Below, piece by piece: positions 2,340-28,932 of a DNA stretch of 34,466 nucleotides. Where the stretch lies: the NCBI GenBank assembly GCA_003598085.1, contig QZKU01000073.1, positions 1-34,466 of the forward strand, written 5' to 3'. A model generated the notes under the pieces. The model was not told where the DNA came from. It saw only the letters and a program-made list of their open reading frames with translations, and did not search any database. Both the position numbers and the translations under genes were made by a program. Origin of the DNA: Candidatus Abyssobacteria bacterium SURF_5. Its GTDB lineage: Bacteria; Abyssobacteria; SURF-5. How positions within the stretch are numbered: the stretch's first letter is position 1; each line of letters starts with the position of its first letter.

Positions 2340-5300
2340 ATGTCGCGAGCATTCAAGATCGGCCGAATGAATTCAGCCGCCGCAATGGTTTTCGCGGCAA
2401 TTTCCATGGTGATCCTACTGTCACCGGTCGCATCAGCCGAGACGATCAATTACGGCTATGATGATGCGCAGCGGCTTGTCAGCGCCCAGTACGGCGACGG
2501 AACGGTGGTTGACTATGTGTACGACAACCTGGGCAACCGCTTGCAGAAAGCCACCACGCTTGCAGGCGCTCCGGCCAATAATCCTCCGAACGTAGCCATC
2601 TCCCCCAGTCCTGCAAATGGCGCGACAGGGATATCCACAATTCCCACCTTGAGTTGGACGGGCAGCGGCGATCCCGACACCGGCGACACCGTTTCGTACT
2701 CCGTCTATTTCGGTGATACGGCGAATCCGCCCCTCGCAAGCAGCGGCTCGGAGACAAGCTATACGCCAGGGAAACTGAGTTCTCTCGAGACTTACTATTG
2801 GCAAGTCGTTTCCAGAGACAGTCATAACGTCGAAGCGGCTGGTCCCGTATGGAGCTTCACCACAAAAGATGACCCGGTCGCCGCCTTTTCATTTTCACCG
2901 GTTGCGGGACATTCACCTTTGACGGTGAATTTCATGGATGCCTCAACATCTCAGACCAGCACAATCGTATCGTGGGCCTGGGATTTCGATAACGACGACA
3001 TCATCGACTCGACGACGCAAAATCCGAGCTATATTTATAGTTCATCCGGCACATACACCGTACGCTTGACAGTGACCGACGCGACGGCCGCCACCGGAAC
3101 GGAGACAAAAGCCGCCGCCATCAACGTTTATCTTCGAGGGTCCATATCGGGAACGATTACCGACGCCGATACATTGCAGGGGATAGAGAATGCAGTGGTG
3201 AGCGCGAGCGGGCCGTCCTATGGAAGCACGCATTCTGACGCATCGGGCGTTTATAGCATCACAGGGCTCAAGCAAGGTGATTATTCTGTAAGAGTTTCGT
3301 TGTCGGGATATCTCCGCCACAGCTATCCCGGCGTTGTCCACGTGAATGCGGGGGCCGACACCCCGAACATCGGTATCGCGATCTCATCCGACTCAGATCA
3401 TGATCTCGTTAGTGACTCCACCGACAACTGCCCTCATATTTATAATCCGATGCAGGAGGACATGGATACAGATGATATCGGCGATTTGTGCGATCCCGAT
3501 ATGGATGGGGACGGAGTGGATAACGACCTGGATAATTGTCCGACAATCAGCAATCCTGGTCAGGCCGATGCGGACGGCGACGGCTACGGAGACGACTGCA
3601 CTGTTGTCCATTGTGTGAATTCGAGCGCGGAGCTGCAAGGCGCGCTGACGTTAGCGCAGAATAATGGGAGTAACGACGTTATCAAGCTGGAGCAAGGGAC
3701 GTACTTGATTTCCGGCAATAATGGAGACTACTTCAGATATGCCACAACCGAACCGTGGAGCCTGGTTATACAGGGGGGCTACCTGCCGGGTTGCTCCGCG
3801 AGGGAAGTGAATCCCGCCGATACGGTTCTGGAAGGCGGGATAGACCAGCAGGATGCGGGAGCGGGCGTGTTGTTCCTGCGCGACGGGAATACAACCCTTG
3901 TTTCAACCCATACCAAAATCGTGGTGGATGGTGTTACTGTCCAGAATGGAATCGCCGGCTACAATGCCGGAATCTATGCCTACACCCAGTATGGAACCCT
4001 GTTGTTCACGAACAATATCCTGAAGAACAATACAGGGACTACAGGCGGGGGGCTTTACGCCATTTCCTCATATGGAAAGGTGAAACTTGCAAACAATGTC
4101 ATTAACGATAACACGGCGTGCCATTATGCCGGCGCATATCTGCAATCGAATGGGTGGATAGACCTGACCAACAACACCATAGTAGGCAACACGGCGACCG
4201 GCAACGGCGGCGGAATTTATCTCTATCAGGCCGATGAGGCCGCCACCGCCGAGCTTTACAACAACATCTTCTGGAATAATGCGGCGGGGACGGGTCCGGA
4301 TATATACATCGACAATTGGCGGGGAGGAGCAGCAATCGCTTATTACAATGATTTTAATCCGACGAATGTGCAAGGAGCTTTTGCATCGCAGGGAGACAAT
4401 ATTAACGCAATCCCGCTGTTCGTGGGGGGCGGTGATTATCATCTCAGTTTCGGGTCGCCCTGTATTGACGCCGGCGATCCCTCGGCGCCTTCGCTGCCGC
4501 TCACAGACTTCGAGGGCGAGGGCCGCGCGCTCGGGATAGCTCCCGACATCGGCGCCGACGAGTACTACGTGGAAGGTCCGACATTCTCCGTGAGCGGCCG
4601 AATACTCCTCGATGGAGTGGGCCTCGGCGGGATAACCGTCTCTTTATCCGGAGCGCAAGCGGCTACCGACATTACGAACGCAAATGGCGAATACTTATTC
4701 ACATGGGTTCCCGAGGGCGGTTACACGATCACTCCTTCAGGCCCATATCAGTTCACTCCTCCAGAAAGAGTGGTAACCGTAAGCGGATCGGACCTGACCG
4801 GCCAGGACTTCGCGGCCGCGCTCGTGGACTCTGACGGTGACGGCATTTATGATATCAATGACAATTGTCCGCTGGCGGTGAATCCCGACCAACTGGATTA
4901 CGATGGAGACGGCGTGGGTGATGCCTGTGATAATTGCCTGACAAAGCAGAATCCGGATCAGGCGGACACGGACGGAGACGGCTACGGAGACGCGTGCACC
5001 GATGTGTATTGCGTGTGCACGAGCTTAGAGCTGCAAGATGCGTTATCGGAGGCCCAAGGCAACGGAAAGAACGATGTGATCAAACTGGTGCAGGGGACGT
5101 ACCTTGTTTCTTTGAACAGTAACCAGCACTTCAGTTATGCCGCTACTGAGCCGTGGGGACTCATTATCGAAGGCGGCTACTTGCCTGATTGCTCAGCAAG
5201 AGAAGTAGACCCAACCACTACGATTCTGGATGGCGAAGGCATCCATCAGAGCGATATCGGAGGCGTGCTGCGTATTCGCGATGGTAATACCGCCCCCATC

Positions 5301-6359
5301 TCGGTTCATACGGAAATCACGGTTGACGGTATAACCGTGCAAAATGGAGAGGCCGACTATTATGGAGGCGTCGACATCTATACGGAATATGGAACCATAA
5401 ACTTCATCAATAACATTGTGAAGAGCAACCATGGGACGACGTGCGGTGGAATTCACGCCAATTCATATGCGGGTACCATAACACTGTCAAATAACATCAT
5501 CAGCGATAATACAGAGTATTATTATGGCGCGGTGTACGCGCAGTCCAATGGAACAATAAATTTCCTCCACAACACTGTCACGGGTAATACTGCTGACACG
5601 AATTGTGCCGGGCTGTATCTCTACCAGGCTAATTATGCCGCCTCGGCAGAACTCTACAACAATATTTTTTGGAATAACGCCGCTGGGACGGGCGCGGATA
5701 TCTTCCTCGACAACTGGCGGGGAGGAACGGCAGTCGCTTATTTCAATGATTTTGATCCCGCCAAGGTTTTTGGCGCCTTTGCATCAAGCGGAAACAACAT
5801 CAATGGGAATCCCATATTTGTTCAGCCTGCTTATTGGGTTGCGTCTGAATCGGTCAGTGGCGACTATCATTTATCATGCAATTCGCCATGTATAGACGCT
5901 GGAACAGATGCGGGAATCCCCAGCGACCTGGAGGATGATGCGCGGCCATTCGATGTACCATTGATCGACCACAACGGTCCAGAGCCCGAGTTCGATATGG
6001 GCGCCGATGAATGCGTCGGATTTTCGAACTTGTGTCTCACCCTCCTTCCGGATTCAACCTCCATTCAGCGAGGTGGAACTCTCGGGTATACAGTCACCGT
6101 CGTGAATCCGACGGCATATCCTGTCTCGTTTGATTACTGGACGAATGCGACTCGACCGGACGGACTGATGTATCCTCCGTCAGGACTTCTTCTCGGGCCG
6201 TATCCCGTGAACCTAAATGGGTTGAGTATTCACACGCAGCATGTGAATCATACCATCCCGACTGAGGCGCCTCTTGGAAGATATACCTACAACGCCTTCG
6301 TTGGCGCCTATCCCTCATCCACAAATGAATACCATTTCAACTTTGAGGTGACACCATAA
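2340..6359 (+). CDS. Large secreted protein with YD repeat, PKD, Ca-binding TSP3 and two beta-helix units
   Basis: The protein has 1339 residues with a clear signal peptide at 1-33 ending ASA. After it come one RHS-type YD repeat (about 37-72, with [10 protein letters not shown] and YDNLGNRL), an Ig/fibronectin-like domain (83-175), a PKD domain (about 180-265, WAWDFDND), a carboxypeptidase-regulatory-like domain (268-345), thrombospondin type 3 calcium repeats (350-420, DxDxD with NCP), and a right-handed beta-helix (421-740). A second carboxypeptidase-regulatory-like domain (745-825), TSP3 repeats (829-885) and a second beta-helix (886-1220) follow, then a C-terminal beta domain. The two TSP3-plus-helix units are clearly homologous. 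GGAGGGGGAAGG upstream of ATG 2340 is a strong ribosome site. The protein is probably exported as an adhesin or a glycan-binding surface protein. No catalytic site was identified and no sorting tail is obvious. Confidence 0.85.
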
Positions 6360-10033: not shown

Positions 10034-10672
10034 CGCGCTACCGCCACCCCCTTCCCTCCGCGGACATTGCCCCGCCTCAGCGGTACTATGAAGTGGTCCG
10101 ACTGCCGAGATGCCATTTGCGATTCCTTGCCTTTCACCGCTTGTCCTCGGATACTCCCCTTCCTAGCGGAGAATATCCCGGCCCCTCCCAAGTTCATACA
10201 AGCTCCTTGTGGTATCATGCATCCGGCCTCTGACCCCGTCGGGCTGCCGAGTCCTTGCCCTTGCGGACCCGCACAGTGCTGCCTTCCAGCACGAATACAC
10301 TGTCGGCCTCCGACACGTAATAAGTTTCGGGGCTTAATACCTTCACTTTCGTTGGAGCCTGATACCTCCCCCTTCCAGCTTCATGCGGTTTGTTGCCTCC
10401 CCGCACGGGGGATTAGGTGCTGGACTGGCGGCTACCCTTTGTCCAGACCAGGCTTTCACTGGTCAGAACTTGTACGCTTCTTGGCACACATTCGTAATTC
10501 GTGGTCCTAGCATTTTGGCTGCCGATGAAGATTTGGGCGCGCGAATGCCGGCCCGTAGGTTGACGTGTCTGCGGAAAACATGGTAGCCTAACTTCATGAT
10601 TTTTCGATGGCAGACGGGCAGGAATAAGGTCTGATTACGGCGGAATCCGCATCCTGAAAGGAAAAAGAAACT

Positions 10673-11128
10673 ATGGAAAAGCAGGCACTCGAACAGCGCG
10701 TGCGCGAGTCGGTCGCTTCGCTCATGAAGCAGGGCTTCAACTGAGCGCAGTCTGTTGTCGGCTCCTGGCAGGAGCTGCTCGGAGTGAAGGATGATTTGAT
10801 ATTAAAGTGCGCGACCGGTTTCGGCGGAGGAGTGGGCGCGCGCGGCTCTCTGTGCGGCGTTATCTCCGGAAGCGTGATGGTCATCGGAATGCAAAAGGGG
10901 CGGGGACGCGAGGACGACATGAGCGTCGCGCTCGAGACCTATCTTCGCTGCAGCCGCCTGATGACCTGGTTCAACGACGAATTCGGGTCCGAGCGGTGCT
11001 CGGATTTGACCGGCGGCGTCGACTTTCGGGATCCCGAACAACTTGCAAAGTATTACGAGTCGGGCCATCAGAAGTGCGTCGAGATGGCCGGCAAAACCGC
11101 GGCCAAACTCGCGGAGCTTCTGGAATAA
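10673..11128 (+). CDS. C-GCAxxG-C-C family protein, probable selenoprotein (Sec24)
   Basis: Translated through the in-frame TGA at 10742-10744, the gene gives 151 residues, the usual length of this putative redox family. ATG 10673 follows GAAAGGAAAAAG. The TGA falls in GFN-U-AQSVVG, exactly where the family has its first conserved Cys (NCAQ). Downstream are the family's ATGFGGGVG block (Cys46), LCGVISG (Cys61, the CGAxxG motif) and further Cys93, Cys109 and Cys135. Sixteen bases after the TGA, GCTCCT-GGC-AGGAGC (10761-10775) forms a perfect hairpin with G in the loop, as a bacterial SECIS requires. Sec forms of this family are known. A plain nonsense mutation is the alternative. A start after the TGA (GTG 10784) would lack the first redox residue. 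Confidence 0.8.
10759..10777 (+). promoter_or_regulatory. SECIS-like hairpin for UGA recoding
   Basis: A six-pair perfect stem (10761-10766 with 10770-10775) is extended by one G-T and one C-G pair. The loop is GGC. The loop begins 22 bases after the TGA, inside the distance known for bacterial SECIS elements, and has G in its first two positions. Confidence 0.7.
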
Positions 11129-11133
11129 ATGTT

Positions 11134-11258
11134 TACTCCGACTGGGTGAGGATGAATTGACGGGGCCCTTCCGGTGAGACGCGTGGACTAAGAGGGAAAT
11201 CCCCCTTAGTCCCCCTTTCGTAAAGGGGGAATCATACTCTGACTGGGTCAGGATGAAT
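11134..11258. repeat. Direct repeats with a strong hairpin between them
   Basis: A 24-base sequence at 11134-11157 (containing GACTGGGTGAGGATG) recurs at 11235-11258 with two mismatches. Between the copies CCCCCTTT-CGT-AAAGGGGG (11211-11229) forms an eight-pair hairpin. The unit starts just after the selenoprotein stop. It looks like a small intergenic repeat element. The rest of 11129-11445 holds no gene, apart from a GC-rich dyad (cccgcgaggcgcggg) near 11270. Confidence 0.6.
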
Positions 11259-11445
11259 CAAAAGGCACGGTCCCGCGAGGCGCGGGATGCCCCTACATCG
11301 GCGGTTATCGGCGGTTCCAAAAGAGAGATTCTTCACTGCCCTTCTGTTTGAAACGTTTCTTCTTCACATCTGCAGATTGAAGATTTCTCTTGTATTGGAC
11401 GGCAATGAGTAAACAACAACGACAAGACTCAACGGAGAACTATTT

Positions 11446-27400: not shown

Positions 27401-27868
27401 AGCGGCAAAAAATCCCCGTGAGGGCGAATTAGCGCCGTTTTCGGACGCGATGAATCGCACCCCTATAAGAAATATGGCAGTAATGTCGAGGCCGATTTGC
27501 AAACGTCATCGACGTGAATCCGTAAATGCTCAGTCCGCCGCATTGGGAGAGTAGGACTTTCTGACGATTGATTCGACTGATTTTGCGATAGGGGCAGAGA
27601 CACCGTCCGAATTAAGCGCTGGCACTTGCTTCGGGGACAGGCACCATTCTATCCCGCGAGGCGCGCACTCAGCGAAGATGGATTCCCGTTTTCACGGGAA
27701 TGACAAAAAAGCCTGACCCAGTCCCCATCGCGACCGTTGGACAGATTGACAGACACCATTCCACGAATTCAAAAAGACGTGAATTCCGTAAATGGTGTCA
27801 GTCCCCGCCGCATTGGGACAGTCTCCATCGCAACGGTCGGACACATTCGCTGTCTCTGGTTTTGGTGA
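27401..27868. repeat. Field of degenerate palindromic repeats
   Basis: No gene is convincing. 27511-27551 and 27776-27821 are related copies (GACGTGAATCCGTAAATG and GACGTGAATTCCGTAAATG, both running into CCGCCGCATTGGGA-type or CCCGCCGCATTGGGA-type sequence). A third match pairs 27717-27745 with 27817-27845 (CCATCGCGACCGTTGGACA and CCATCGCAACGGTCGGACA). 27752-27770 can fold on 27781-27799 with 15 of 19 pairs. The motifs resemble ends of REP-associated transposon elements, as at 26031-26365. Confidence 0.55.
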
Positions 27869-27897
27869 TTGACACAGGTTTCGGTTGTGGATATGAT
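27869..27897 (+). promoter_or_regulatory. Promoter directly abutting the dehydrogenase start
   Basis: TTGACA (27869-27874) and TATGAT (27892-27897) have a 17-base spacer. The expected transcription start is about 27904, the A of the ATG, so the mRNA may be leaderless. Confidence 0.7.
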
Positions 27898-27903
27898 AGG
27901 CGT

Positions 27904-28932
27904 ATGCGGGTTGCAGTTTATTACAACAATCACGATGTCCGCATTGAGGAGCGGCCTGTTCCCGCCGTCGGGACTGGCGAGGCGCTCGTGCGCATCGAGG
28001 CCAGCGGCATCTGCGGCAGCGACGTGATGGAATGGTACCGCATCAAGAAGGCGCCGCTGGTGCTCGGCCACGAGATTGCAGGCGAGATAGTCGAGCTTGG
28101 CCCGGGCGTGAACCATTACAAGACGGGCGACAGGATTTGCGCTTCCCATCATGTCCCGTGCAACACCTGCATCTATTGCCTCACCGGCCGCCACACGGTT
28201 TGCGACACGATTCGCTCGACCAATTTCGATCCGGGCGGCTTCGCCGAGTTCGTCAGGCTCCCTGCGATCAATGTGGACCGCGGCGTGTATCCTTTGCCGG
28301 CGGAGCTGACATATGAGGAAGCGACCTTTATCGAGCCGGTGGCATGTGTGCTTCGGGCGCAGCGGATGGCGCGGCTGCAGCCGGGACAGAGCGTGCTGGT
28401 TGTCGGCAGTGGAATGACCGGCCTGCTCCACATCAATTTGGCGCGTGCGTGTGGCGCCGGAAGAGTCATTGCGACCGACGTTCAGCCGTACCGGCTGGAT
28501 GCGGCGCGGCGCTTCGGGGCTGACGCCGCGCTTGACTCGCATGAGAACGTGCCGGCGCGCGTGCGCGAGCTTAACGGCGGCCGCGGCGCAGACGTGGTTT
28601 TCGTCTGTACCGGCGCAATGAGGGCGATCGAGCAGGCGCTCGATTCGGTCGACCGCGGCGGAACGGTTCTCTTTTTCGCGCCGACCGATCCGGGCGTGAA
28701 ACTGCCGATCGATGTGACCGAGCTTTTCTTCCGCAACGGAGTCACGCTCACGTCTTCATATGCAGGCAGTCCGGCCGACCATGTGGCCGCCGTCGAACTG
28801 CTGCGGGCGCGGGCGCTGAATGTGAAGGACATGATCACGCACCGCCTTGGACTCGGAGAGACGGGCGTCGGGTTCCGCCTCGTGGCCGAGGCGCGCGATT
28901 CGATTAAAGTTATCATCGAGCCGCAAAAATAG
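27904..28932 (+). CDS. Zinc-dependent medium-chain alcohol/polyol dehydrogenase
   Basis: The protein has 342 residues and starts MRVAVYYNNHDVRIEE, the normal family beginning. Catalytic zinc ligands are Cys37 (GICGSD), His56 and Glu57 (LGHE). The structural zinc loop has Cys86, Cys89, Cys92 and Cys100. The Rossmann fold shows VVGSGMTGLLHI (about 163-174) and an ATDVQPYRL strand end with acidic Asp, which fits NAD+. The family includes sorbitol, threonine and related sugar-alcohol dehydrogenases. The substrate cannot be read from sequence. A 33-base gap (with AAGGAGG) leads to the aldolase gene, so the two are very likely one operon, and a polyol or deoxy-sugar phosphate pathway is plausible. 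Confidence 0.9.
   Translation: MRVAVYYNNHDVRIEERPVPAVGTGEALVRIEASGICGSDVMEWYRIKKAPLVLGHEIAGEIVELGPGVNHYKTGDRICASHHVPCNTCIYCLTGRHTVCDTIRSTNFDPGGFAEFVRLPAINVDRGVYPLPAELTYEEATFIEPVACVLRAQRMARLQPGQSVLVVGSGMTGLLHINLARACGAGRVIATDVQPYRLDAARRFGADAALDSHENVPARVRELNGGRGADVVFVCTGAMRAIEQALDSVDRGGTVLFFAPTDPGVKLPIDVTELFFRNGVTLTSSYAGSPADHVAAVELLRARALNVKDMITHRLGLGETGVGFRLVAEARDSIKVIIEPQK

Follow-up and report, generated by a model that had tools for sequence, protein, structure and literature searches.

Does the TGA codon that interrupts a short reading frame in the draft genome of Candidatus Abyssobacteria bacterium SURF_5 end a gene, or is it read as selenocysteine (Sec)? The window analysed here is a stretch of 34,466 nucleotides, contig C73 of that 5.1 Mb genome (G000), which is assembled in 145 contigs. 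A first-pass annotation, made from the sequence alone, had proposed a selenoprotein gene hidden by an in-frame TGA at codon 24. Our comparisons indicate that this is almost certainly a selenoprotein gene, of the C_GCAxxG_C_C family, in which TGA24 is read as Sec. This reading is drawn from the position of the TGA on an invariant Cys, its conservation, a hairpin that fits a Sec insertion (SECIS) element, the presence of the sel machinery, the use of TGA as a normal stop and the fact that Sec members of this family are already known. Standard gene callers would lose the first 23 residues together with the key Sec, or overlook the gene altogether.

The gene and its start

The frame is open from the ATG at 10673 to the TAA at 11126–11128, and TGA24 is its sole internal stop; translated with Sec at this codon, it gives a protein of 151 residues (Table 1). 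The first-pass annotation had pointed to a good ATG with GAAAGGA upstream and to intact family sequence beyond the TGA, and both descriptions hold. The AGGA of this motif lies 10 nt before the ATG, and a purine-rich, Shine-Dalgarno-like sequence also precedes the ATG in the two orthologs described below (G001 and G002). A sigma-70 promoter scan found nothing, an Rfam search of positions 10500–11300 returned nothing meaningful, no signal peptide is apparent by eye in the 151-residue product, and inspection by eye of other TGA-interrupted frames across the window gave no second candidate.

Translation could instead begin after the TGA, for example at the GTG at 10784, in which case the product would have 114 residues and one arm of the hairpin described below would be a mere ribosome-binding site. 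The ORF listing does contain this 114-residue frame, and an AGGAG (10769–10773) is found 10 nt before the GTG. However, the GTG is not conserved, codon 38 being TCA in G001 and TTG in G002. The short form would also be without the first invariant Cys of the family, and it would leave residues 1–23 unexplained, although this stretch is conserved at the protein level. We consider a start downstream of the TGA very unlikely.

Table 1. Features of the selenoprotein locus, in window coordinates
Feature	Position	Strand	Basis
Probable Shine-Dalgarno sequence, GAAAGGA	10656..10662	+	Read in the sequence; the orthologs too have a purine-rich stretch with AGG ahead of this ATG
Predicted C_GCAxxG_C_C family selenoprotein gene	10673..11128	+	Translation with TGA as U; PF09719; TIGR01909; orthologs (77%/73%) with the same TGA
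UGA codon 24, predicted to be read as Sec	10742..10744	+	Cys-invariant column (34 homologs); TGA in G001 and G002
SECIS-like hairpin, 8 pairs, GGC loop (UGGCA if U-A open)	10759..10777	+	Pairs kept in 3 genomes
Codon of Cys61, second invariant Cys, CGVISG motif	10853..10855	+	34-sequence alignment
Codon of Cys109, third invariant Cys	10997..10999	+	34-sequence alignment
Codon of Cys135, fourth invariant Cys	11075..11077	+	34-sequence alignment

Family membership

With Cys substituted for U, residues 22–149 match PF09719 with an E-value of 5.5e-27 (94.6 bits against a cut-off of 27), and TIGR01909 is matched at 77.3 bits against a curated cut-off of 47.4. The window protein resembles the 'C-GCAxxG-C-C family (seleno)protein' of these two entries in its whole-length match, its size and its four invariant Cys; the host lineage is what differs. 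Across 34 aligned homologs, the invariant positions are 24 (Sec or Cys), 61, 109 and 135. The column at position 24 holds only Cys or TGA, in agreement with the earlier placement of TGA24 at the first conserved Cys of the family.

Two further models, the HUGP/GUXX-star fusion selenoprotein (NF045501) and the DVU_1555 family (NF045669), are matched in part by the window protein and a paralog, with E-values of about 1e-15 to 1e-21. The scores of the two proteins are 57–67 bits against a cut-off of 325 for NF045501 and 64–76 bits against 103 for NF045669. As the window protein itself scores far under both curated cut-offs (57.4 and 67.4 bits, respectively), we assigned it to neither family. A plasmid search returned distant Bacteroides/Phocaeicola homologs only.

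Two reviews (PMC9312934 and PMC13188914) include Sec forms among the members of PF09719, and neither states a Sec motif for them. The first-pass annotation was therefore right that Sec variants of this family are known, and it is well supported that the window gene joins a family already known to include selenoproteins rather than representing a new kind.

Conservation of the TGA codon

A search for orthologs among 41 genomes identified full-length copies in two genomes of the same family but of other genera, 77% (G001) and 73% (G002) identical to the window protein, and both keep TGA24. For the whole gene, dS is about 1.4–2.2 and dN about 0.15–0.19; synonymous sites are near saturation, with few amino-acid changes on either side of the TGA, and dN stays far under dS in codons 1–23 as well as in codons 37–151. 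The conservation of the TGA across these relatives is, on this comparison, not due to chance; a functionless stop would not be expected to outlast such divergence in three genera.

These data bear directly on the suggestion that an ordinary Cys gene has gained a stop, through decay into a pseudogene or through a sequencing or assembly error. A single error or mutation would be enough, since either Cys codon, TGC or TGT, becomes TGA by one base change, and the window does come from a draft assembly. But the same TGA occurs in three genomes that belong to different genera and were assembled separately, and purifying selection acts on both sides of it, so the window gene is not a pseudogene, and an error of this kind is extremely improbable. 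The first-pass annotation had named random substitutions after the TGA in close relatives as the sign of a pseudogene, and these were not found.

Beyond the three genomes, TGA appears at the same alignment column in three genomes of other, unrelated families. A tree of the family needs three Sec changes, at least two of which are forced by well-supported branches; this suggests that Sec arose at least twice independently in the family, with the caution that several branches of the tree are long. One of the two orthologous genomes, G001, is titled Candidatus Poribacteria and yet falls into one family with Candidatus Abyssobacteria SURF_17; its title may be a misclassification.

The SECIS-like hairpin

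A perfect hairpin, GCTCCT-GGC-AGGAGC (10761–10775), starts exactly 16 nt past TGA24, where the first-pass annotation had located it, with the place and loop expected of a bacterial SECIS element (bSECIS). With its GGC loop, 8 bp stem, distance of 22 nt from the UGA and predicted energy of -10.9 kcal/mol, it fits the constraints of the bSECIS model with which we compared it (PMC13188914); the loop, GGC or, with the U-A pair open, UGGCA, lies 21–22 nt after the UGA. All eight pairs are kept in the three genomes. The one variable pair is T-A instead of C-G in G002, where both changes are synonymous (TCC to TCT and CAG to CAA). Between the window gene and G001, codons 30–35 are without any change; in codons 38–151, 47 of the 91 conserved residues show a synonymous difference.

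Hairpins of comparable quality turn up at 3.6–4.8% of the codon positions of neighbouring genes; when the same peptide is recoded synonymously, 10–14% of the recodings contain one. As stand-alone evidence, the hairpin was set aside as too common by chance (about 4–14% of cases). The covariation involves one pair across three sequences and is not statistically strong: 171 of 500 shuffles reach as much. In predictions for the isolated 44-nt RNA of the window, the hairpin (-11.4 kcal/mol) is less stable than an alternative fold (-16.2 kcal/mol); the alternative is favoured in the window copy alone, and the hairpin is the dominant predicted fold in both orthologs.

Selenocysteine machinery and genetic code

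The genome carries selA, selB, selC and selD, whose absence the first-pass annotation had said would speak against its reading. Contig C41 has selA (588 bits) next to selB (381 bits), selD scores over its cut-off, and selC, a tRNA-Sec with the anticodon TCA, was found in this genome and in both of the genomes that carry the orthologs.

In all three genomes selD itself holds one in-frame TGA (L026, L027 and L028), in the context SGG-U-ACK, and a strong SECIS-like hairpin has a GGUC-type loop (GTC/GTT) 33 nt after this TGA. SelD and the window protein are unrelated, but their genes share an in-frame TGA and a SECIS-like loop starting with G in the same three genomes, and selD is thus an internal control for UGA recoding in the lineage.

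Reassignment of UGA to another amino acid, or readthrough without Sec, would also account for a frame that stays open across TGA24, but it is exceedingly unlikely. Among the 18 window genes, five end normally with TGA and the others have none inside, and 70 TGG codons were counted, so the code is not reassigned; the genome also has tRNA-Sec (TCA) and selAB, and TGA24 falls on an invariant Cys.

Proposed mechanism and significance

In the selenoprotein reading, the ribosome would start at ATG 10673, and SelB carrying Sec-tRNA-Sec would bind the hairpin past UGA24, so that Sec would be inserted there in place of the first invariant Cys of the family. Given four invariant Cys positions and what is generally known of selenoproteins, we infer a Sec–Cys redox role: Sec24 probably pairs in a selenenylsulfide with one of the remaining three invariant Cys, and the product, in what is probably an anaerobe, would then work as a thiol/selenol oxidoreductase. 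A redox function is likewise putative for the C_GCAxxG_C_C family as a whole.

With this gene, Sec use extends to a candidate lineage from the deep subsurface, in the description of which selenium is not mentioned (PMC6121073). Within an uncharacterised family of redox type, the gene singles out the first Cys as the reactive residue. The understanding of Sec decoding is left unchanged.

A second, two-domain gene

On contig C44 of the same genome (about 27527–28483, minus strand; L076:2022–2993), a further gene encodes a 324-residue protein with two C_GCAxxG_C_C domains. In domain 1 a TGA takes the place of the first Cys, domain 2 is all-Cys, and the gene with its TGA is conserved in the same three genomes. 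The loop of a SECIS-like hairpin lies about 35–36 nt after the TGA, the hairpin being weak in the G000 copy. This gene likely encodes a second selenoprotein of the family. We would only tentatively propose that the lineage makes use of two C_GCAxxG_C_C selenoproteins, the single-domain one of the window and this two-domain one, the latter combining a Sec domain 1 and a Cys domain 2 in an undescribed architecture. If this is true, the Cys domain 2 of the two-domain form may be the redox partner of its Sec domain 1.

Structure and gene neighbourhood

The AlphaFold model of the window protein is all-helical, with a mean pLDDT of 94.7 and residue 24 at the start of a helix, and the product is thus confidently modelled as a small all-helical protein. 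Searches of the PDB by sequence and by fold, and of a viral fold library, gave no convincing match, so no function was transferred from structure. The gene neighbourhood offers no functional hint or evident operon; only a downstream MscS gene is common, and it is shared with G002 alone.

Several repeats were observed in the window. Just 3' of the gene, positions 11134–11183 and 11235–11284 form an imperfect intergenic direct repeat of 50 nt (74%), with the inverted repeat CCCCCTTTCGTAAAGGGGG between the two copies. Elsewhere, the adjacent stretches at 278–584 and 795–1104 are repeated about 520 nt apart with about 75% identity. Positions 2340–6359 encode a 1339-residue protein of the PKD/carboxypeptidase-regulatory/thrombospondin type 3 kind, with an internal repeat spaced 1398 nt, which is probably a surface or secreted protein.
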